DNA of 64,000 nt, taken from Hydractinia symbiolongicarpus (Eukaryota > Cnidaria > Hydrozoa > Anthoathecata > Hydractiniidae). Position 1 is the stretch's first letter, and each line of letters starts with the position of its first letter. Both the position numbers and the translations under genes were made by a program. The DNA is taken from assembly GCF_029227915.1 (NCBI RefSeq), contig NC_079878.1, forward strand, positions 23,835,501 through 23,899,500, in the 5' to 3' direction. This document shows positions 12,985 through 64,000 of this stretch, one piece after another. The notes below the pieces were generated by a model. The model did no database searches, had not been told where the DNA came from, and saw only the letters and a list, made by a program, of their open reading frames with translations.

Positions 12985-15403
12985 AGGTAATGGAATATTC
13001 CCTACTGAAGATTTCCAAGCGACTGGAAGGCTTACTGCAAAGTTCGAAACTTATGTACACGTAAAATACGAGAATCGAAGTCCCAATTTAGTAAAAACTT
13101 ACTAGCACAGAATTGTCATAATCCAAAGAAATTTTGGGATACGATAAAGAAAATAATGCCAACTAAACCACGAAACGTCGTAAGTGATGCTACAGCAACC
13201 AAATCGAAAGTTGAATCACTTTGTTTGTTTTTCTCTTCAATAGCAGCTCAAATCAAGGAGAAATCGATTCCCTTAAAAGATTTTTGTATGGAAACAACCA
13301 CAATGGTCGAAATTACAAACTACTTCCATATTTACCTTCAAATATGTATCGAAAATATCGATCGAAAAAGAACTGAAAAAATTAAAGAGAAGTAAAGCCA
13401 CAGGTGTAGACGATCTTCCACCTGGACTGCTCAAAGATTGTTCCAGTCAAATCGCTGCTCCACTTTGTCACATAATAAACTTATCGATACAAACGGCTAT
13501 GATACCTGGAGAATGGAAGCATGCTGTAGTTAAGCCAATTTTTAAAAAAAGGTTCGACTGACGATAACAATAACTATAGACCTATATCTATATTGCCGGT
13601 CATCTCAAAAATTCTCGAAAGGGCAGTATATGACCAAGTTATCGAATATCTTGAGAAGAACAACTTATTATCTCAGTATCAATTTGGGTATCGTCGTCTC
13701 AGATCAACAGATTTGGCTGCTAATCTATTGTTAGATGACATTAGAAAGGAAGTTGATAAGAAAAAATACGTTGCTGCAGTTTTCATGGACTTGTCAAAAG
13801 CCTTCGACACGGTTGGTCATAGTATTTTAATTGAGAAATTATCAGCTTATGGTATACGTGGTAACGAACTAGAATGGTTTTCTGATTATTTGTTTGGGAG
13901 AAAGCAGGAAGTAGTGGTAAATAATATCAAATCTGACCCACAACCAGTGAATTGTGGTGTTCCGCAAGGGTCCATACTCGGGCCATTATTATTTTTAATT
14001 TTCTTTAATGACTTTGATAATGTCCTACTTAAAGCTAGCGTTATTAAATTTGCAGATGACACTGTTATCTACTTCTCAAGTGAAAGTTTTCTCGTCCTTG
14101 AAAATGTATTAAATGAAGAACTTCTTGCTGTTGAGACATATCTACGAGAAAATGATCTTGTTATTAATTTAAACAAAGGGAAAACAGAATGGATGATATT
14201 CGGGACGAGTAAAATGTTGAAAAGTGCTGAAGGAAAAATATCATTGTCATGTAATTTTGTGGAGATTAATGAGACGAAAAGCTACAAGTATTTGGGATCA
14301 ATTATTGATCCTAAGTTGTCTCTAAATAACAACTTCGACTCTACATACAAAAAAGCATCTGGAAGACTCCGTTTACTGACGAGACTAAGATCCGAAGTTG
14401 ACGATACAACTGCTAAAAAGATTTACGAAACAATGATAACTCCAATCATTACATTCAATAGTATCATCAATTTGAACCTGAATAACACCCAGTTGAACAA
14501 ACTGCAGTCCTTGGATAGACGTGCCAGAGTAGTAACTAACAACAACAGTTTACAACCCATTTACGACAAAATTCAACGAAATGCTTGTAATGTTGTCAGA
14601 AAATGTATTGATCGTAAAACATGCTCAAATTATTGGAACCACTTTCAGCTGCTAAATCATCAAAGACTGACTCGAAACAATTCTTATTCGCTAAAGTTAC
14701 CAGCAGTACGTTTGGATATGGCAAGAAATGGTTTTTACTATATGGGTGCCAGTATATATAATTCTTTACCAATAGATATACGAAGGGAGCCTAGTTATAT
14801 GAAATTTAAAAATAAATTGGATAACCATATTTTTTAATCGTTTGGCCTACTTACACACTTTATTTGGACTTTGGACCCTAACACAATATGAAGCTCTTAA
14901 ACCTTGTCTAGTCTTCCTTATTTATATGTTTTCACCTCTGTTTCTCACCCTTTCTACTTGATGTTTTTAGATACTGCAAGCTTATGACATACGCGGTTTT
15001 GAATTAAAATGTTTTTTGCCGATTATTCATTCGACATTTAGCAGAAGGAAGCATTTGTGATATGGCATGTTTCATCTTTCGTTTCTTAGTATAGCATTTT
15101 CAATATTTCATATATTATACTAGCTTTGTTGCCTCACCCATTTATACCAATTATCTCCCATTTGAGCGCTTAACTCATGGACACCTATAATCTTATCTTT
15201 AGTGTATTTTCACCATTTCATCTATGTGCTTAGCGTTTTTCTTTTTGTTTTGCCTATTCCTTTTCATTTTATTGGATTTTAGAACATCGACGATTTTATA
15301 TTAAATTGTATATAATGTAGAGTATTTGATTTTAATTTTAGCAGGACACATTTGAAAAGCAGAAACTTATTCTGAAATGTATATCCTGGGTAAATATTGA
15401 TGA

Positions 15404-19900: not shown

Positions 19901-22900
19901 AGATCTTAATTTCCATCCAATAAAGATCGATTCTATTAACGATTAAAAAGTGTATAATCGTAATTTCAATATTTTAGGAATGTTTTTTTTGCGAAAATAA
20001 TCCTGTGAAGACTTTACCAAGACGATAAATACTTTTCTTATTAAATTAAAAACATCATTGATTCTTGTTACCTCTTGTTCAGATTCAATTTTCTATTGAA
20101 CATGGTGTTATTTTAAAATACAAAAGTTTTTGCGTTGCAGATGTGGAAAATCAAGGAGGTTTAAAAAGAAGGAGAGAGAACTCGCGGCGTCCCTTTAAAT
20201 TTTCTATTCAATTTTTTATTGTTTCGGCGCCCCTTTGAACTGATCCGTGTCTCTGATTTGGCTCAATATTTACCTACCGACTCTGAAACGAGTGTTTTAA
20301 CGAGAAAAGATAAATCTTAAAAATCACACTTACAGCAATGCGGAAGAGCAGGAAAACATGTAGTTTAGTTAAACTACAAGATTCAATGAGGGTGAAGTTT
20401 GTTTTTCCACTTCCATAAGGACGCGGAAGGAGTAAAGTGCCTTCAAAGTGCGAAAAGCTGCCTTGGGAGATCGTAAAGTTTTACAACTTATAAACTATTT
20501 CGTATGTCCCCTCCTGGGAAAATGTTAGTTAAAGGGTTGATTAACGTTTTTGTGCAGGTCTCGTCAGGAGGGGTTATTTATAAAATTGTTTTTTTTACTC
20601 TCGAAGTAGACGAATTCTCGGTAGGGTGTCGCAGCACGTCGCAGCACTCGGTGATGTTTTCCATTGTCATGGAACAAAAGAAAATAATTATTAGTTCTAA
20701 TTATGTATATTTAGGTAAAAGTTTTAAGCAACTTTTTTTCTTTTTTCCCCAGTGGGAGTAGATTTTCTGTTTATGTATATTCTTTCTTTCTCTCACACCA
20801 GCTGTATGTTTTGAATATATATTGAATTGAGTTTATAATTGTTTTTTTATTAGGTGTTACATAACCAGCTGGCAAGTGGTTCACATTTTTTTTTAATTCC
20901 CTTGACACCTTTGTGGGTTTTTTATGAAGTTTTTTTGAAAAATAAAGTATTCATATTTGAATTTTGCTGTGTCAACATGTCTGCTTCACATTCAGAGTAT
21001 ATTCAAAAGCTATGTAGATTGTGTGGGAAGAAAATTGTGAAAAGTAAACATTACGTTAATTTTAAATCTTGTGATATTTACAGTGAAGTGTTTCAATCTA
21101 TATATGGAATAAATTTTGAACAAGAAGATCCTTGTGTATTTCCTAAATTTACTTGTAATGGATGTAGAAGAAAATTAGATGAGATGAAAACGTCAAAAAA
21201 AATAATTGGTACTGCTGCATCATTTTACCCTCATGTGGATGAAAATTGTGTGTGCATGAATTATGCTGTAAACAGAAAAGACAGCTTAAAAATACTGGAA
21301 TTAGATGTGAGTATGAAGAAAGTTGGTTTTAGTATATGTGATAAATCGGATAACTATAAACGTGTCTATACCCTTTGTCAAAATGAAAAAGAATTAAACC
21401 ATTTGCTTACAATACGTATAGACAACAGCAATGGTTGGGATTTCTCCATATATGGGAAACCTATGGAGAAAGAAACAATACAACTAACAAAAACTCTGCC
21501 ATGTGTTTTGAAAAATGATGATATTTCAACTTTCTCGTCATTCTGGAAGTCAGTCAGTGTTTGCACGGGGTTACAAGGTTATGAAGATGTAATCAAGTCG
21601 AGATGTAATTTCGAACAGCCATTCATGAATCAGAGTGGAACATTTCCAGTAGCTTTTGTTGAAGACGATAAAATGGTCAGATTTGATGAAGACAATTTTA
21701 AAACAATACGCCATACCAACTGTCATTTTTTAGCTGAAAAACCTTCATCTGTATGTAGTATGTGCAATTCTTTTAAACCAACAGTTAAAAAAGTTAGAAG
21801 TAGACGGAAAAGTGATGATTCTGTGCTTGATTCCTCACATACAAACATTCGATATCTTTCCAGAGAAGAACTAGAGGAAAGATATCGCAATACTCAGGGA
21901 GAAAAACAGAGAGCAATAAAGAAAGTTGCCCAATTATCATCTTGGGTAAGAAAAATTACTGAGAAAGAATGCATCCATGTTGATGATGAGCAACACGAAT
22001 TTATAAAAAATATTGTTTGCAATGAGGAAACATGTCCTGAAATACCCGAAGGCAGTCCCCAGTGGTTGTTATGGGAGCAACAAAAAGAAATGGCTTCCAA
22101 AAGTTCACCTAATGGCATGAGATGGCACCCACTAATTATTAGGTGGTGCCTCAGTTTATACCACCATTCACCAGCAGCATATAAACATTTGCGAAATCCG
22201 AATTTGAATTTTTTAAAACTCCCACATATTGACACACTTAAAAAATACATAAACTTCACTGATCCAATGTGTGGATTCAATCCAGATGTCATTGAAAGAT
22301 TAATAGTGGATAGTAAAATTGCAACTCTGGATGATCACCAAAAAAACGTTTCGCTTATTTATGATGAGATGAAAATAAAAGCTGACTTGGTGTTCAGACA
22401 GTCAACTGGACAATTGGTTGGTTTCACTGATATGGGGGATATTAACGATGAGTTAGTTGAATTTCAAAAACGTGCTGAGGGATCATCAGAGAATGATCGT
22501 CACTTTGCTTCCTATGTGATAGTGTTTATGGTTCGAGGAATTGTTTCATCTCTGGTGTATCCTTTTGGATATTTCGCATCATTGGGATTTACCTCTGATC
22601 AGCTCTATCCATGTGTATGGGAGGCGACATATGTATTGGAGGCAATTGGTTTTTATGTTCGAGCATTTATTTCAGATGGTGCTTCTCCCAATAGGAAGTT
22701 TTACAAAATTATGGTGACACCTGATATTGGTAACACATATTGGACCAACAACTTATTATCATTGGACAGAAAGATCTTTTTTATATCCGATGTCCCTCAT
22801 CTCATTAAAACAACGAGAAACTGTTTCGAGAACTCTCATGGAAACAATAATACACGCAATCTTTTTGTAAGTGTTTTTTGTTTGTTTGTTTCAATTTTAA

Positions 22901-25900
22901 AGTATATCTGTATACATATATCAATTTTCTATTTATTAGCTCGATCACATGGATATCAGCTGGAACCATCTTGTCAATGTTTATGAATGGGATCTGAATT
23001 TACATGGAGCAGCACCTGGATTAAGGAAACTTTATAAACTAAAAGAGGATCACATAAAGTTAACTCCAAGGTTGAGGATGCAAGTTAAGTTGGCTATCCA
23101 AGTGAGATATTTTTCTTTTCTTTTTTTATTATTTATTTGTCTGCTTGTTTGTATTAGTGTTTTCTGAGTGATAGTGGATTCACAGTTTGATTATTTTGTG
23201 GGAGTTGCAAATAATGATATACTTCTGATAATGTGTTTATCATTGCTCATGTAAATTATGATTTTGCATTTAGGTTTTGAGTAAAACAACTGCTGATGCA
23301 CTTGAGGTTCAGGGGCTGCATTATACGAAAAGTACAATAAAGTTTGTGCGTATGTTTGACCAAGTTTTTGATTGCTTGAATGTATCTTCAATTAATCAAG
23401 ATCGTGGCGGAAAAATAGCTCTTGCAGCATATAGAGATGTTAACGATTGGCGTTTTGAGGTTAGTAGTATCATTCGAAATACATTCAATTATTTTGTAAC
23501 GGAATTCAGAAACACAACATTTTTCCCTCAAAAAGCTCAAGTTCATTTTGCATATTTGTAAACCAGTCCTAAAGAACTTGATCTCCATGTAAAAGGGTGT
23601 GCAAATATTTCCATTTTCATTTTTCATTTTTTTCACATCAACATGTAAAATTCAGTTTTTAGAGAAAGAATTCCTCGAACATTACCTGGGAAGGTGGGAA
23701 GAACAAGCCAATGACACACCTAATTTATCCCAAGATGAAAAAAATAAATTGTTATTGAGCAAACAGACGATAAATGGTTGGAAAATAACAGGTAAAAAAT
23801 CTACATTTTTCTGCAATTGTGGTTCCAGGCAATGTTTCATGGACAAACGGTGTTGTTCTATAAATGTATATTTTTTTTATCTTTGTCCATAGTGAAATCA
23901 TTCGTGGAACTGACCAAATTACTTCTCCAGAGTCCAAATGTCAAGATGATTTTGAGCGAGAAATTCTCACAAGATCCATTGGAGGAACATTTCGCTCGTC
24001 AAAGACGAAGTGGTGGTACATGTGACAACCCAACACTTTATCAATTTGGCCAACAAGAACTTTCTTTGCTTGTTATGAAATCTGAGTTGATCAGAGATCT
24101 ACGTGGAAACACTCGACGTGGTAATCAAAATCAGATTCACCTAGACGTAAATGATATGAGGAAACTTCCACAGAAAAGAAAGAGATAGTTATTTATATAT
24201 TGATACTTTTGGAAACATGATTGTTTGACTATTTTATTTATATTTTTTCTGAGTATGTCAGACATTTTTTCCATTACGCTTTTTCAACATAGAAGTTGTT
24301 TTGTTATTAGTGCCTTGTCTTTTGAGTCACATCTTTTGCAAATATTTTTAGTGGAGTACGATTTTGACTTTGATTTGAAACATTTTTTTGAAAACATCAA
24401 ATCTTAGAAAATAATTGAGATTAAAAAAATTTAGGATTGCTACTTTATTATTGCTATGTAATTTTTATTTATGTCATCGGGAAATTACAACTATTACGGA
24501 ATTTCTTTTATCTTCATTTCGAATGGATCCGCCATACGTGAATAAATATTACAGTTTTGTTTTGCTTTTTTACATACTCACTTCGCGATATGTAGAACAA
24601 CCCTGGGGACAAGTTTCATTATATTCCCAACAAGAATTCATGCGAAGGAGTGTCGAAATTAATATTCGCTATTCGGGACTATGTTGATTTAAAAAAAGAA
24701 CGTGACAAAGGCCTCTTGGTGTAAGGGTGTATACAAACCACAATAAAACATACCCGATACCCGTGTGAGATGTAAAACTTGTTTGCAAAGAGAGTTCGAT
24801 ACCCGTGTGAGATATAAAACTTGTTTGCAAAAAATTTAATCAAATGGAATAATCAAAAAGTGAGTTGATTTCATCAGGCCACAGTCAGGCATAGAGCATC
24901 CGATGCGGCAATCCTAGGTCCGAGGTTGCGGTCAGCTTTAAGTAGCGATTCTCGCGTAAGAATATTTGCGTCGGTAATTATGCACGCGCAACTTATTTTT
25001 CAGGGTCCCTCCAGCTGATAAAAAGCATGTTGTTTCATACCATCTTGATTAGCCTATCCATCAACCATTTCTCCGCGTTTTTATGATCTATTAAATTTCT
25101 AGCAAAGCGCGCAGAGTTTTGATCTCGCAGCATTATTCAGTTTAACGCTTGCCAATGTGCATAACTGAACAAAGAAGTAGCACAAAAAAAAGAAATGAGA
25201 GTGAAGTTCACAAATCTTGGCAAAAATTTAGATTTAAAATAAACAGCTTCAGCGAGATTGAATCCTTACTCAATCCGAAAAAAACCCTTAAAATAGTACA
25301 AACATAATAAGGGTATGATTATTTTACTAAGAAACACAGTTATATACATGGAAAAGATATATAGAAATTAAAACAAGTTATAGGTAAAAATGTTATGACA
25401 ATTAGTTAAGTTTTTTTCTCATTGCTGGTTCACCTTTTTTAGATAAGACTACAGTCAACTTCTCTTTTTTCTCCGATGCTAGAGAAGCAAGTTTGCGTCG
25501 AACTACTTGTATATATGCAGTGACATATGCTTTTGCTCTGATGTCACACCATTTTTTAATGATCTGAGCTTTGAGAATTTTCGATAACTTCTCATTTCCA
25601 AGATACCGTGAAAGTATGACCCAGGCTTGATCAATTAAAGAGTCCTTCATAAGTTCATTTTCGAAAAGTTCCCGTATATCTTCTCCTTTATATTTTTTCA
25701 ACATGTTCAAATTTAAAACTTTTCTAATAACGTTTTCAATTCTTCTGCAAAAAATAAACATGTCATCATTGACTTTTATCAGGTATCCTCTGCTGACTTG
25801 GTCCACCCAAGATCTTGTATAATCCAGAAAACTATATACCTGCAGTTTATCATCACCTGAAACTTTCAATGAGTTCAGAAACTGCAATGCAGCCACAGCA

Positions 25901-28077
25901 ACAACTTTGTTTTTCGAATCTGCTAATCTTTGGTATTTTTTACGTAGCGAGAAAATTATGTATCCTGAAACATAATACAGAACAGTTTGTTCCTCAGTTG
26001 TGAGTTTCAAGTCAAGACTTTTTTCGACATGTCGATTTTTGTTTTCATGAGCTACTAGTATTTTTATTAACTCCATAACAAATTTCTGCAACAACATAGA
26101 GAATTCTTGACTGTCAATGCAGTATCCTTTAGGTAATACATGTTTCCAATGTTGTCTGAATTTATCGTCTTGTGCAAGTTCATGCACTTTTCTCCAAAGA
26201 GATTCTTTTCCTGAACCAGTCAGTAGGTTAGATTTTTGCAATTCTTTAAATATGCGACACACTACATTTTCAGAAATAATGTCCAAAACATCACTCCCAG
26301 CATTCAAAATTGAGTTGGCTAATTCTTTGACACGATTTCCAGGTGTTTTGAATCCTTTCACAACAATGTTATTGATTGGGTCTTTTGAAATTTTAACCAT
26401 AGCATCACGAACAAAATTCATTTTTTCTTGCTGCAGCTCATGATCGGTGATGGATAAAGATTCTAAAAGGGTGCAAAAAAAAAGGTTTATACCACCAGTT
26501 CACAATATTTTGCTCTATATATAGCAAAAAAAAATTCCTTATGTTCTCAGAGTTCATGAATGAATACTTACGATTCGATTTTGATTTAACTTGTTTTGTG
26601 GAAATTGTTGTAGTTGATTTATTTTTTGAGTCATCAAGAGTTTTTCTTGCCACTGTTGTTGTTTCTGGATCTATTATTGGAATACAGAGTTGACATCAGA
26701 ACACAGTTGTGATAACAAAACAAGACAACAACAACAAAAAGCATATCAAATGATGATAATACAATAGCTTTTCTATGAAATCTACATGCAGAGTCAAAAA
26801 ACAAAACATTATAGCTAGCTAGCTAATGGTGTTTTAAAGAAAACATGACTTTATTAAACTGAAGCATTACCTGTTGGCTTTTTACATATCAGAGTATGTT
26901 TCTTGTAGTAAGCTTCTTTAAAATACTGTTTTTTGCACTTGCTGCACACAAACTTCACATTTTTGGTACTGTTGTTATCAACCACCATGTCCACATCTTC
27001 TTCATCAACGAATACTATTTGAGGAATACCCAAATATCCAGCATCTACTTCATTTTCTTCTTCCAACAGATCTTCCACAAACGATACTTCCACCTCACAA
27101 CTTTCGTAAACAGTAAAATCTGACAACATTTCTTCCGTCACAAAAAAGTCATCATCCAATTCTATTATATTTTTAACGTCTTCGCCTGCCATTTCGCTTC
27201 TTGCTTGTTTATGATATGTAAAAACGACAAATTTATCAACTAACAAGCATTTACCGCTGAGAGAAAAATAGCCGCGGGCTCATAATTTATGCAAATAGTA
27301 ACAAAAGACAACGGCTAATTTATTAATTTAAGCGCGAGATTTCAAATTTTGATTGACAGAATTCGATGTAAGAACAATAGAGAAAAGTAAACATGAGACA
27401 CGGATGATTTCAATAGAAATAAAAGAGTTCTCTCTCCTTCTTTTTAAACCTCCTTGGGAAAATCAAATCTGCCTTTTTTGATTACATACAACCTCGTACC
27501 CAGGATTTGTTAGGCCTTTTATATTTGGACAGCCTGAACAAGGCCCTGGCCATTAACAGACATTAATCTTGTCGACAATTTCATCGAATTAGGTAATATT
27601 TTTTTAATATAATCTTACCTTTGGTGCAGGTTTAAAAAGAGGTATGATGCCAGACACTAATGCCGCTACAGCTGAAAGTGCTGGTCCTACGGGAGGTGGT
27701 AGAGCAGCTGTTACTGTACCAACAATAGCAAAAGCACCTTCAGCAATATCGTAAGGATCTCCTGACTTAAACTTTGCTAAACTTGGACCAATTCCTTTTA
27801 CCGCATCTAACGCTTTAGTCATATGGTTTGGATCATTTAATTTCTTTATCGCATCTTTTGATTCTTCTGCGCCGTCCTTTATAGATTTTCCAGTTCTATC
27901 ATCTTTTTTAAGGGTTTCAAGTTCGTCAAGCTGTTTTTGCAGTTCTGCAAAGATTTGATCTGTCTCTTCATCTAGTTGTGTTTTTAAAGACTGTGTCATA
28001 TCTTTTATGTGGCCATTACAATGTTTAATAACGAAACACAAAATCAAATAAAGTGTCCGAATTTTAGTTACATTCAT
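16927..28077 (-). CDS. Secreted protein of the jellyfish toxin (CfTX/CaTX/CrTX-like) family, four exons
   Basis: Predicted secreted pore-forming-type protein. Exons in transcription order: 27619-28077, 19335-19686, 17806-18274, 16927-17212. The phases match (0, 1, 2) and give 521 aa. A signal peptide covers about residues 1-22 (ending KHCNG). A helical N-terminal region of heptad-like charged segments follows, then a hydrophobic, Ala/Gly/Val-rich segment near 120-148. Exons 3-4 encode a tyrosine-rich, probably beta-rich C-terminal half. Length, signal peptide, hydrophobic helix and overall order fit the cnidarian CfTX/CaTX family, whose N-terminal half has been compared with the Cry-toxin pore domain. 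The exon 2 donor (GTTTGC) is weak. Intron 1 (7.9 kb) carries a complete P-like transposon, and a possible extra exon sits in intron 3. Family assignment is from general resemblance, not a search. Confidence 0.7.
17573..17645 (-). other. Candidate alternative exon in the toxin-like gene
   Basis: A 73-base minus-strand segment bounded by an acceptor (ATTCAG) and a good donor (CAG then GTAATT). One frame is open through it and would join the last exon in phase, reading LLHKDAVIHDSILDPR before the junction. It does not fit the phase of the preceding exon: inclusion would create a stop after about five codons. It may be a cassette exon, an alternative first coding exon, or a decayed duplicate. Confidence 0.35.
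19687..20144. other. Distal part of toxin-gene intron 1, next to the transposon
   Basis: Intron sequence between exon 2 of the toxin-like gene and the left target duplication of the transposon. A short minus-strand open frame (19671-19916) with one hydrophobic stretch overlaps the exon boundary in another frame and looks spurious. Confidence 0.45.
20145..20152 (+). repeat. Target site duplication, left copy (GGAAAATC)
   Basis: The 8-base word GGAAAATC directly precedes the left terminal repeat and recurs at 27457-27464 directly after the right one. P elements make 8-bp duplications, so this fits the family. Because the first and last bases of the element are ambiguous by one, a 7-bp reading (GGAAAAT) is also possible. 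Confidence 0.85.
20153..20183 (+). repeat. Left terminal inverted repeat of the P-like transposon
   Basis: 31 bases starting AAGGAGGTTTAAAAAGAAGG, the exact reverse complement of 27425-27455. The match extends one more base if C20152/G27456 are counted as part of the element. Confidence 0.95.
20184..20976 (+). promoter_or_regulatory. 5' leader/promoter region of the transposase gene
   Basis: Non-coding transposon sequence between the terminal repeat and the transposase start. It contains a perfect 20-base palindrome at 20359-20378 (TGTAGTTTAG plus complement) and a 10-base tandem duplication at 20628-20647 (GTCGCAGCAC twice). A possible acceptor (TTTTTTTATTAG) ends at about 20852, so a 5' UTR intron is plausible. 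Open frames reaching back to 20854 lack family similarity, so the start is placed at 20977. Confidence 0.45.
20243..20253 (+). repeat. Subterminal 11-bp inverted repeat, left copy
   Basis: ATCCGTGTCTC, the exact reverse complement of 27395-27405. It probably serves as an internal transposase-recognition or enhancer element, by analogy with P-element internal repeats (inference). Nearby, GGCGTCCCTTT and GGCGCCCCTTT (about 20186 and 20226) form a short direct repeat. Confidence 0.7.
20977..24188 (+). CDS. P-element/THAP9-type transposase with RAG1-like N-terminal zinc domain
   Basis: Exons 20977-22866, 22940-23101, 23274-23459, 23656-23791 and 23893-24188 join in phase to 889 aa with no stop. 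Residues 11-93 carry KLCRLCG (C13, C16), a helical IYGINFEQED segment, C60-x2-C63 and PH-x4-C-x-C (H86, C91, C93). This is the pattern of the RAG1 N-terminal zinc-binding dimerisation region, in place of the usual THAP domain. From about residue 400 the protein is P-type: GMRWHPLIIRWCLSLYHHSP, LIYDEMKIK (D463), FMVRGI, a SDGAS motif (D567), SDVPHLIKTTRN, ISWNHLV, the KLTPRLRMQVKLAIQ region, and near the C-terminus SQDPLEEHF (E822) with GGTCDNPTLYQFG. D463, D567 and E822 are my candidates for the RNase H-like catalytic acids. The N-RAG-TP element of Aplysia is the known precedent for a RAG1-N-like transposon protein. The C-terminus ends in a basic KRKR. Confidence 0.92.
24189..25401. other. Intergenic centre of the transposon, between convergent genes
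   Basis: About 1.2 kb between the two stop codons. It contains AATAAA at 24541-24546, usable by the transposase transcript, and a 42-base tandem duplication at 24755-24832 (units begin CGATACCCGTGTGAGAT). No further gene is seen. Confidence 0.55.
24755..24832. repeat. 42-bp tandem duplication inside the transposon
   Basis: Copy one starts at 24755 and copy two at 24797, both beginning CGATACCCGTGTGAGAT and running into AAAACTTGTTTGCAAA. One mismatch was seen in the shared part. It lies just beyond the 3' end of the transposase gene. Confidence 0.85.
25402..27192 (-). CDS. Second transposon protein: zinc finger plus conserved-looking domain, function unknown
   Basis: Exons in transcription order 26871-27192, 26572-26670, 25402-26462, phases 1 and 1, giving 493 aa. 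The start is the ATG at 27192 (MAGEDVKN). An upstream in-frame ATG at 27246 is less likely. Residues 1-75 are strongly acidic. Residues 83-103 form a zinc finger, C-x2-C-x12-H-x3-C. A Ser/Thr/Lys linker follows (exon 2). The rest is a helical, Lys-rich domain with LTTEEQTVLYYVSGYI at about 294-309 and a basic tail. It is not a transposase I know and has no P-type motifs. Its convergent position inside the same terminal repeats makes it part of the element. It may be a DNA-binding accessory, a regulator or a host-derived passenger; the sequence does not decide. Confidence 0.85.
27193..27424 (-). promoter_or_regulatory. Promoter/leader region of the second transposon gene
   Basis: Short sequence between the ATG at 27192 and the right terminal repeat. 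It holds the right copy of the 11-bp subterminal repeat at 27395-27405. No TATA box at a convincing distance was seen. Confidence 0.4.
27395..27405 (-). repeat. Subterminal 11-bp inverted repeat, right copy
   Basis: GAGACACGGAT, the exact reverse complement of 20243-20253, 51 bases inside the right end of the element. Confidence 0.7.
27425..27455 (-). repeat. Right terminal inverted repeat of the P-like transposon
   Basis: Ends TTTTTAAACCTCCTT, a perfect inverted match to 20153-20183 over 31 bases. Confidence 0.95.
27457..27464 (+). repeat. Target site duplication, right copy (GGAAAATC)
   Basis: Second copy of the 8-base word at 20145-20152. Removing the element and one copy would restore an uninterrupted intron. 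Confidence 0.85.
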
Positions 28078-62625: not shown

Positions 62626-63689
62626 CTACTTCGACGTTCCATTGAGTTCATTAGAAATACTGTTAATTCCCAATTTTTTCCGTTCCTCTTCATATTTATG
62701 TACATTGCGTTTCATAATTTCAACACAAGGTCCAAGCAATCTTTCAAACGCGTTTATGTTCAGCACAGCACATTTAGTATCATCAGTGTACGAATAGACT
62801 GAAGCTACACGTGGCTTTTGTAAAACTAGCGCCAATTCACCGAAGTATCGACCTCGGTTTAGCTTAACTACTTCTTGTTCTGTATTTGTATTTTTGTCTG
62901 TAACACGCACAGACACTTCTCCCTGCATGATAAAATACATGTTGGTTGCAGAATCACCTTCTTTTATAATTTCCTCACCTTTGGAGAAGCGCTTCTCGTC
63001 TAAAGCATCAGTAAGGTTCATCAACTCGTATGGTGTCAAAGAATCGAGCATCGAAACACCCATCAAAAGAGTTTCGAACGTTTTCCGTTTTTTAGCGGTT
63101 GCTTTTACAACTATTTGTCGAAATGTTTTTTGGTCTAACCCCCATAAGATACCTTCGCCTGTGGCCATAATGGTGGCATTTCTTGGACAGTTATATAACA
63201 ACGCTAGTTCTCCAAAGAAACCTTTATCTTGTAACGTAGCGACTTTTTTCTCTCCATCACCGTCTTTAATTAAAACGTCGTATTTACCTTCCTCAATGAC
63301 GTAAAAGTTATCACCGTCATCACCTTGACGAATTATAACATCGCCTTCTTTGACGCGTTTTTCAAACATAGCGTCGAAAAGAATTCGCTTTTGCTCGGCG
63401 TCGCATTTTTCGAAAAATATTATCCCCTTTGCTGCTTCTTCTAAACATTTTAATTGTTCGGAAGTCTTTGGGTTGACGACAATTATTTCACTTTCTTCAT
63501 CTTCTGCAGTTGGGTCGTAGGATTCAGCTGCGACAGCCTGTCGTCGACCACGTGCTGGAGGTGGAACGAAATCATCATCGTCCATGTTCACACTTGTTTC
63601 AGTATTTTCTTTAACTTTGTGTGAAGTTTTTATTTGTGCGTTAAGACTGTTGTTAGAGGATTCAATTGGACTCTTTCTGCATGCGAGAC
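62626..63689 (-). CDS. cAMP-dependent protein kinase regulatory subunit (type II-like), 3' exon, partial
   Basis: Inhibitory cAMP-binding subunit of PKA. This 1064-base exon runs from an acceptor (TTGTTAG) at 63690 to the stop at 62626. The first in-frame ATG upstream lies in the intron and is not the real start. In order: a linker, the inhibitor site RGRRQAVAAES, the bridge NPKTSEQLKCLEEAAKG (type II-like), cyclic-nucleotide domain A with cassette FGELALLYNCPRNATI, and domain B with cassette FGELALVLQKPRVASV. Both cassettes keep the cAMP-contacting Glu and Arg. The C-terminal helix EIMKRNVHKYEEE is present. The inhibitor site has Ala where type II subunits normally have the phosphorylated Ser, so it reads as a pseudosubstrate like type I. 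The N-terminal dimerisation/docking exon is missing and must lie beyond 64000 or be undetected. Confidence 0.93.
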
Positions 63690-64000
63690 CTAACAAACAA
63701 GCAAACAAAAAAAGTTTTTATTTATGTGGATAAAAAATTGTTTTGTTAGATCACTCAGTATTATTTCTATCTTTATTGCAGTGCTGAAGATCTGCTAGCT
63801 ATCTGTCTGTCTGTAACGAGTATGGATCACTGAATTCTCGTGGATGTTTTCACGGGCTTCTGAATATTTTTACCCTAACATATTTTTGTTTAAATTAAAA
63901 ACAGAAATAAGACTGAAAATAGACTAGTAAAAATGCAATTATTTTTTATATATCAACAAATTTTTTGATTATCAATTGTTGAACCACATAGAACCACAGA
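63690..64000. other. Intron of the PKA regulatory gene
   Basis: Upstream intron sequence. It contains the third copy of the dispersed repeat (63798-63866). No docking-domain exon was found here. Confidence 0.6.
63798..63866 (+). repeat. Dispersed repeat, copy C (shorter)
   Basis: ATCTGTCTGTCTGTAACGAG and TCTCGTGGATGTTTTCACGGG correspond to the two conserved blocks of the copies at 40455 and 51233, with the middle shortened. Confidence 0.5.

Follow-up and report, generated by a model that had tools for sequence, protein, structure and literature searches.

A recently mobile P-superfamily transposon of Hydractinia with a RAG1-N-type zinc module and a conserved second gene that may encode a transposase partner

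P elements serve as a model of cut-and-paste transposition in eukaryotes. In published passages on them, one gene makes the transposase, which carries a THAP domain, and insertion leaves 8-bp duplications of the target (PMC7776569, PMC10983969). What, then, is a second, spliced and convergent gene doing between the terminal repeats of a P-like element in the hydrozoan Hydractinia symbiolongicarpus, and how close to a P element is the unit that carries it? Both questions are raised by a stretch of 64,000 nucleotides (assembly GCF_029227915.1, contig NC_079878.1, positions 23,835,501 to 23,899,500 of the forward strand), referred to here as the window and numbered from its first letter. We have analysed the element, its genomic copies and the relatives of its two predicted proteins. 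In a model cnidarian, a conserved second gene carried by recent, near-identical copies makes the idea of a P-type transposase split into two partners testable.

The insertion unit spans positions 20152-27456 (7305 bp; Table 1), and both of its ends are formed by a perfect 32-bp inverted repeat, CAAGG...CCTTG. These perfect terminal repeats bear out the preliminary description in its treatment of the whole as a single insertion unit; the repeats are as perfect as it had proposed, although they measure 32 bp and not 31 bp. Its 8-bp target duplication gives way to one of exactly 7 bp, present in 22 of the 25 copies compared (21 scored by script and a split copy on C8 by eye). The 8-bp reading arose because the eighth base, a C, is the element's own first base: matches of at least 8 bp that include this C occur in 4 of the 22 copies, about the chance expectation for a shared C. 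An 8-bp duplication paired with a 31-bp repeat is a reading shifted by one base, and it is ruled out by the 25-copy flank comparison. The three copies that lack an exact 7-bp match are L018, which has lost its left tip, and two that are old and diverged, L030 and L031, the flanks of which show, by eye, 7 bp with one mismatch each. Duplications of 7 bp were also seen by eye at two older short relatives (L033 and L034) and at two elements of a second family, family B (L047 and L048, the latter with its duplication inside an AT repeat). The duplicated bases show a weak preference, with T at position 2 in 21 of 25 and A at position 6 in 14 of 25.

Table 1 Features of the element in the window
Feature	Position	Strand	Details
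Left target-site duplication	20145..20151	.	GGAAAAT, 7 bp
Left terminal inverted repeat	20152..20183	+	32 bp, starts CAAGGAGG
Left subterminal inverted repeat	20243..20253	+	11 bp, ATCCGTGTCTC, 92 bp from tip
Gene 1 exon 1	20977..22866	+	Start ATG; RAG1-N-type zinc module at about residues 1-95, P-type HTH, first RNase H part with D463 and D567
Gene 1 exon 2	22940..23101	+	Part of GTP-binding insertion domain
Gene 1 exon 3	23274..23459	+	Part of GTP-binding insertion domain
Gene 1 exon 4	23656..23791	+	
Gene 1 exon 5	23893..24188	+	Stop; RNase H C-terminal part, catalytic E822
Gene 2 exon 3	25402..26462	-	Stop; conserved core, predicted all-helical, about residues 141-493
Gene 2 exon 2	26572..26670	-	
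Gene 2 exon 1	26871..27192	-	Start ATG, acidic stretch, finger-like CxxC...H...C motif (by eye)
Right subterminal inverted repeat	27395..27405	-	11 bp, 52 bp from tip
Right terminal inverted repeat	27425..27456	-	32 bp
Right target-site duplication	27457..27463	.	GGAAAAT, 7 bp

Further copies, which the preliminary description had expected the genome to hold, were found: the right end recurs at 99-100% identity in at least 26 places (40 scored of 83 candidates). Among 23 copies examined gene by gene, 15 are of full size (7.17-7.65 kb), nine of them exactly 7305 bp long, and the mean pairwise difference among these 15 is 0.062%. Their 34 variable sites are each private to one copy, a star pattern that fits one recent burst, and recent mobility, which had been proposed from a single copy, is thereby upheld. 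Gene 1 and gene 2 are both open in 12 of the 15 full-size copies; of the others, L009 has lost 135 bp of gene 2 in frame, L011 has a stop in its gene 2, and L024 lacks one base of gene 1. The remaining eight copies are either internally deleted (L010, L012, L015, L018, L020 and L023) or start inside the left end (L036 and L040). The pairing of two genes in one unit, which the preliminary description took to be a property of the element, holds for all 15 full-size copies, including the one with the in-frame gene 2 deletion, and does not extend to the short, internally deleted copies, which are without parts of one or both genes. In gene 1, the window copy carries F47 and I683, where the other 15 residue-compared copies carry C and T. 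The copies support the view that the element is a recently mobile DNA transposon of predicted autonomous, cut-and-paste type.

Some copies have a history of their own. L040 and L009 (G000:C10:24694700-24710300), near-identical and oriented alike, are separated by about 1 kb, and the second of the two is without its first 420 bp. The copy on C8 is interrupted by a 22.8-kb insert (L044-L046, about G000:C8:11864430-11887226) that has, by eye, inverted ends starting GGTAAGTCGTCCACG and an 8-bp duplication; the long ORFs of L044 and L045, within this insert, consist mostly of tandem-repeat sequence.

The eight exons first read as two convergent genes hold up, with GT-AG introns, frames open across the joins and both proteins present in NCBI records. 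Gene 1 has five exons encoding 889 aa and matches an H. symbiolongicarpus record (P0006, LOC130613056; 889 aa, 10 members) without gaps over its full length, with three residues differing. The P-element-like identity suggested earlier is confirmed by P-type Pfam domains and by a match to the Drosophila P transposase: PF21787 (TNP-like RNaseH_N; 8e-24), PF21788 (GBD; 3.2e-16) and PF21789 (RNaseH_C; 8.8e-06) score above their curated cut-offs and the HTH domain PF12017 under its own (0.0022), and phmmer aligns the protein with Drosophila P transposase 6p5a at 1.2e-13. In the 6p5a alignment, D463, D567 and E822 fall on Drosophila D230, D303 and E531, given as the catalytic residues in passages of PMC7776569, with the stretch around the first D scoring only 6 bits. 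Across the best 120 of 286 gene 1 matches (P0006 included), D463 is kept in all 120 proteins and D567 in 118, and E822 is kept in all 82 that have a residue in that column. The gene 1 protein stops 67 residues past E822, and 80 of these 82 listed transposases likewise stop no more than 90 residues past the catalytic E (one at 0, probably misaligned); longer tails are found in P0015 (127 residues) and P0077 (424). These matches show gene 1 to encode a predicted P-superfamily transposase in which the residues of a DDE triad are accompanied by a GTP-binding insertion and, at the N terminus, a RAG1-N-type zinc module. The genome also holds more distant P-like genes: in a search with P0006 (495 candidates, 51 scored), 30 of the 52 listed matches are P-like genes of 32-42% identity in which a single frame covers the greater part of the catalytic region, in some cases with stops (for example, C10:1633830-1635713 and C6:31015105-31017261).

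At the N terminus, where Pfam matched no THAP domain in the gene 1 protein, the first 95 residues form a CxxC...CxxC...H...C module, on which the preliminary description is silent. PF12560 (RAG1 importin-binding) gave no match to P0006 at E 0.5; the family is annotated in 16 of the 120 relatives (again the best 120 of 286), among them a Hydra protein (P0055, 2.2e-10) and P0010 (1.2e-07), and P0006 aligns to the PF12560-bearing relatives through the same Cys/His pattern. With a profile made from 23 N-termini, one of which is that of P0006, the module is detected in 48 of the 120 listed proteins, including all 23. In a tree of the catalytic domains, these 48 proteins make up one side of a fully locally supported branch; the seven THAP proteins are opposite, and the 65 proteins that carry neither label, many of which are incomplete, occur on both sides. 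A second tree method, applied to 58 of the 120, reproduced the split. As read from an unrooted tree, the split is compatible with a single gain or exchange of the module. The combination of a RAG1-N-type module with a P-type core occurs in cnidarians, echinoderms and amphioxus, and bears on the origin of the non-catalytic half of RAG1. A passage of Kapitonov and Koonin 2015 (PMC4411706) describes the Chapa domain as a truncated RAG1 N-terminal part and reports it as not known from other transposable elements; the gene 1 module may correspond to that domain.

Gene 2, convergent with gene 1, comprises three exons encoding 493 aa, and matches its own H. symbiolongicarpus record (P0001, LOC130649343; 493 aa, 13 members) without gaps over the full length, with one residue differing. 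No Pfam family scores above cut-off in it, and the finger-like motif yields a weak zf-C2H2 match (E 0.79). The core is predicted to be mostly helical (mean pLDDT of 57 and 74.5 in the models); the predicted fold matched no PDB entry at E<0.1 (best 0.16 and 0.47 in two comparisons), and a sequence search of the PDB gave nothing convincing (best E 0.32). No gene 2 was confirmed in IMG/VR viral contigs. Searches of 5.8 billion proteins returned at least six proteins, its own record included, an undercount because only candidates sharing most words were scored; four of the relatives (P0002-P0005) are 41-51% identical, and a second, alignment-based search added one more (P0126). In the word-limited search, the relatives come from hydrozoan and sponge. 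The stretch that separates gene 1 from gene 2 contains a 35-bp direct repeat (24755-24831) with 42-bp spacing and 97% identity.

A genome search with P0001 returned the copies of its own family, an older subfamily and about ten distant places, five of which, in four regions, were inspected. L048 represents the second family: 5891 bp long with ends CTTGGAGG, it encloses gene 2 and gene 1, again convergent, within one repeat pair. Identity is about 56% for its gene 2 (residues 290-493); for its gene 1 it is 33% over residues 5-388 and 56% over residues 792-869, with no match between. A derivative of this same family B (L047; 2163 bp, 96.4% identical over 1866 bp) has lost gene 1 and retains an open gene 2 between intact ends, its final codons changed, by eye, at the deletion junction. 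In a third family (L049), a gene 2 of 32% identity lies convergent with gene 1 remnants, and no terminal repeats were found at that place; at L050, no gene 1 accompanies gene 2 within 7.8 kb, and L030, of the older subfamily, holds convergent remnants of both genes. These places show that the predicted gene 2 protein belongs to a conserved family and that its gene is paired convergently with gene 1 in at least two element families. Between gene 2 and its L047 homologue, differences amount to 0.50, 0.31 and 0.65 at codon positions 1, 2 and 3, an order that would be expected of a protein under selection; dN/dS is uninformative because synonymous change is saturated.

A further link between the two genes comes from a sponge. 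P0077 of Ephydatia muelleri (1222 aa, 11 members) is a predicted P-like transposase with an extra C-terminal part that matches the gene 2 profile at E 1.6e-16 among 125 proteins searched, the next-best transposase in that set reaching E 0.006. The fusion could be the product of two same-strand genes joined by the gene predictor. P0077 sits on the THAP side of the catalytic-domain tree; should the fusion be genuine, the two domains were therefore associated before the RAG1-N clade arose. Gene 2 is no chance open reading frame, because it lies convergent with gene 1 in the second family and with gene 1 remnants in the third, and has a sponge relative fused to a predicted transposase.

The ends themselves are asymmetric. 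In Drosophila P, according to passages of PMC7776569, the subterminal repeats are 11 bp long and the spacers to the transposase-binding sites differ in length (9 and 21 bp). In the window element, the distances of the subterminal repeats from the two tips (92 and 52 bp) differ by about 40 bp, and a similar offset is found in L029 (40), L034 (42) and L047 (40, with a different repeat sequence). L031 and L032 have repeats at offsets of 39 and 42, but each has an equal or longer match at offset 35; L048 has an offset of 48, its right tip being short of seven bases by eye. The same test found no subterminal pair in L030 and L033.

How, then, should the element be classified? CA...TG termini are a trait of the P superfamily, and the element has them, with perfect short inverted repeats (CAAGG...CCTTG); the CA is not common to all relatives, because family B ends CTTGG...CCAAG. 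Membership of the Transib/RAG transposons was considered and rejected, the element having a P-type core and a 7-bp duplication as against a Transib-type core and 5 bp. N-RAG-TP of Aplysia, reportedly described by Panchin and Moroz in 2008, is said to be a mobile element that encodes a RAG1 N-terminal-like protein, and it is in this protein that the likeness lies; the comparison was made through partial descriptions in other papers only. By its enzyme, the Hydractinia element falls in the P superfamily, yet it is no canonical P element, because a P-type core is joined to a 7-bp duplication; for Galileo of Drosophila, in the same superfamily, flanking sequences of 7 bp are likewise described instead of duplications of this length, and the passages concerned give it very long repeats of its own and make no mention of a second gene (PMC3573991). 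With Drosophila P as presented in parts of PMC7776569, the element shares the HTH, an RNase H split by a GTP-binding domain, the DDE residues, perfect terminal repeats of about 31-32 bp, internally deleted derivatives and 11-bp subterminal inverted repeats spaced asymmetrically at the two ends. It differs in having a 7-bp and not an 8-bp duplication, a RAG1-N-type module and not THAP, a second, convergent gene, and a length of 7.3 kb and not 2.9 kb. Zebrafish Pdre2/THAP9, from excerpts of PMC10983969, likewise has a P-superfamily transposase with terminal and subterminal repeats, and differs in its THAP N terminus, a C-terminal domain in the same protein, an 8-bp duplication and 13-bp terminal repeats. 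A transposase accompanied by a second protein in each element is described, in other superfamilies, for RAG1L-RAG2L (TransibSU) in a passage of PMC4411706 and for Kolobok-0 with KolX in one of PMC9587614; the Pfam search of gene 2 found no RAG2- or KolX-type domain. In the titles, abstracts and passages searched, an incomplete coverage of the literature, we found no two-gene P element. Set against that literature, the two-gene, RAG1-N-bearing element appears to be a new variant within the P superfamily, distinct from canonical P.

We propose, with a probability of just under 60%, that this is an autonomous-type P-superfamily transposon encoding two proteins, the second of which would be a partner subunit of the transposase. 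The gene 1 protein would bind the subterminal repeats, probably through its zinc module, and grip the terminal repeats with its HTH, so that HTH and RNase H would act there; it would then cut and insert with a 7-bp stagger. The gene 2 protein would join this complex as a partner working in trans with the transposase, a function that may be supplied in cis by the C-terminal region of the predicted sponge fusion. A partner is the most likely role because of that fusion, the repeated pairing of gene 1 with gene 2 and the short end of the gene 1 protein.

The main competing account makes gene 2 a regulator of the element, a repressor or an anti-silencing factor and not a subunit of the complex. 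Repressor-making deletion derivatives are known from P elements, and L047, with its open gene 2 between intact ends and no gene 1, looks like one; the acidic N terminus and the finger-like motif, both seen by eye, would also suit a regulator. The predicted fusion to a transposase fits a subunit better, however, and a single gene 2-only copy with last codons altered at the junction may reflect the chance placement of a deletion, and we consider a regulatory role possible though on the whole unlikely. The same motif and acidic N terminus could instead serve target choice, for example by tethering to chromatin, with the gene 2 protein having a job separate from cutting and joining. The weak preference shared across the 25 duplications is compatible with this, but Drosophila P is not known to need any gene 2-like protein to pick its targets, and we regard such a role as improbable.

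Capture of host sequence is common among DNA transposons, and gene 2, with no Pfam family above cut-off, might be a fragment of a host gene carried as a passenger. Its convergence with gene 1 not only in the window family but also in L048, at about 56% identity, and in L049, at 32% and with gene 1 remnants, makes this very improbable, and no named host gene is among the six proteins that the word-limited search found. As for a classic P element—an 8-bp duplication, 31-bp repeats, a single transposase and an unrelated ORF on the minus strand—the window copy taken alone does read GGAAAATC on both sides, and 31-bp terminal and 11-bp subterminal repeats are those of Drosophila P in the passages of PMC7776569. 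That account is refuted by the 7-bp duplications in 22 of 25 copies and by a minus-strand ORF that is a spliced, conserved gene.

The partner-subunit reading can be taken further, in a form that we hold to be doubtful. The transposase would be bipartite, with catalysis by the gene 1 protein and an obligatory gene 2 partner, acting on ends at which the sites bound by protein are offset by about 40 bp, in a pairing akin to that of the 12/23 rule, and the large RAG1-N-bearing P-type clade of cnidarians, echinoderms and amphioxus would be kin to the source of the N-terminal zinc region of RAG1.

Family B and the remainder of the window add some minor observations. Elsewhere in the window, positions 13530-14837 hold a 435-aa open frame that we take to resemble the reverse transcriptase of non-LTR elements, and positions 62626-63717 one of 363 aa that presumably resembles the regulatory subunit of cAMP-dependent protein kinase. 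In family B, an open gene 2 was seen only in the gene 2-only element L047. At the right end of family B (L047:6039-8201, in G000:C4:10490500-10500000), all 40 scored copies, of 329 first-look candidates, are 99-100% identical, the mark of a recent burst.
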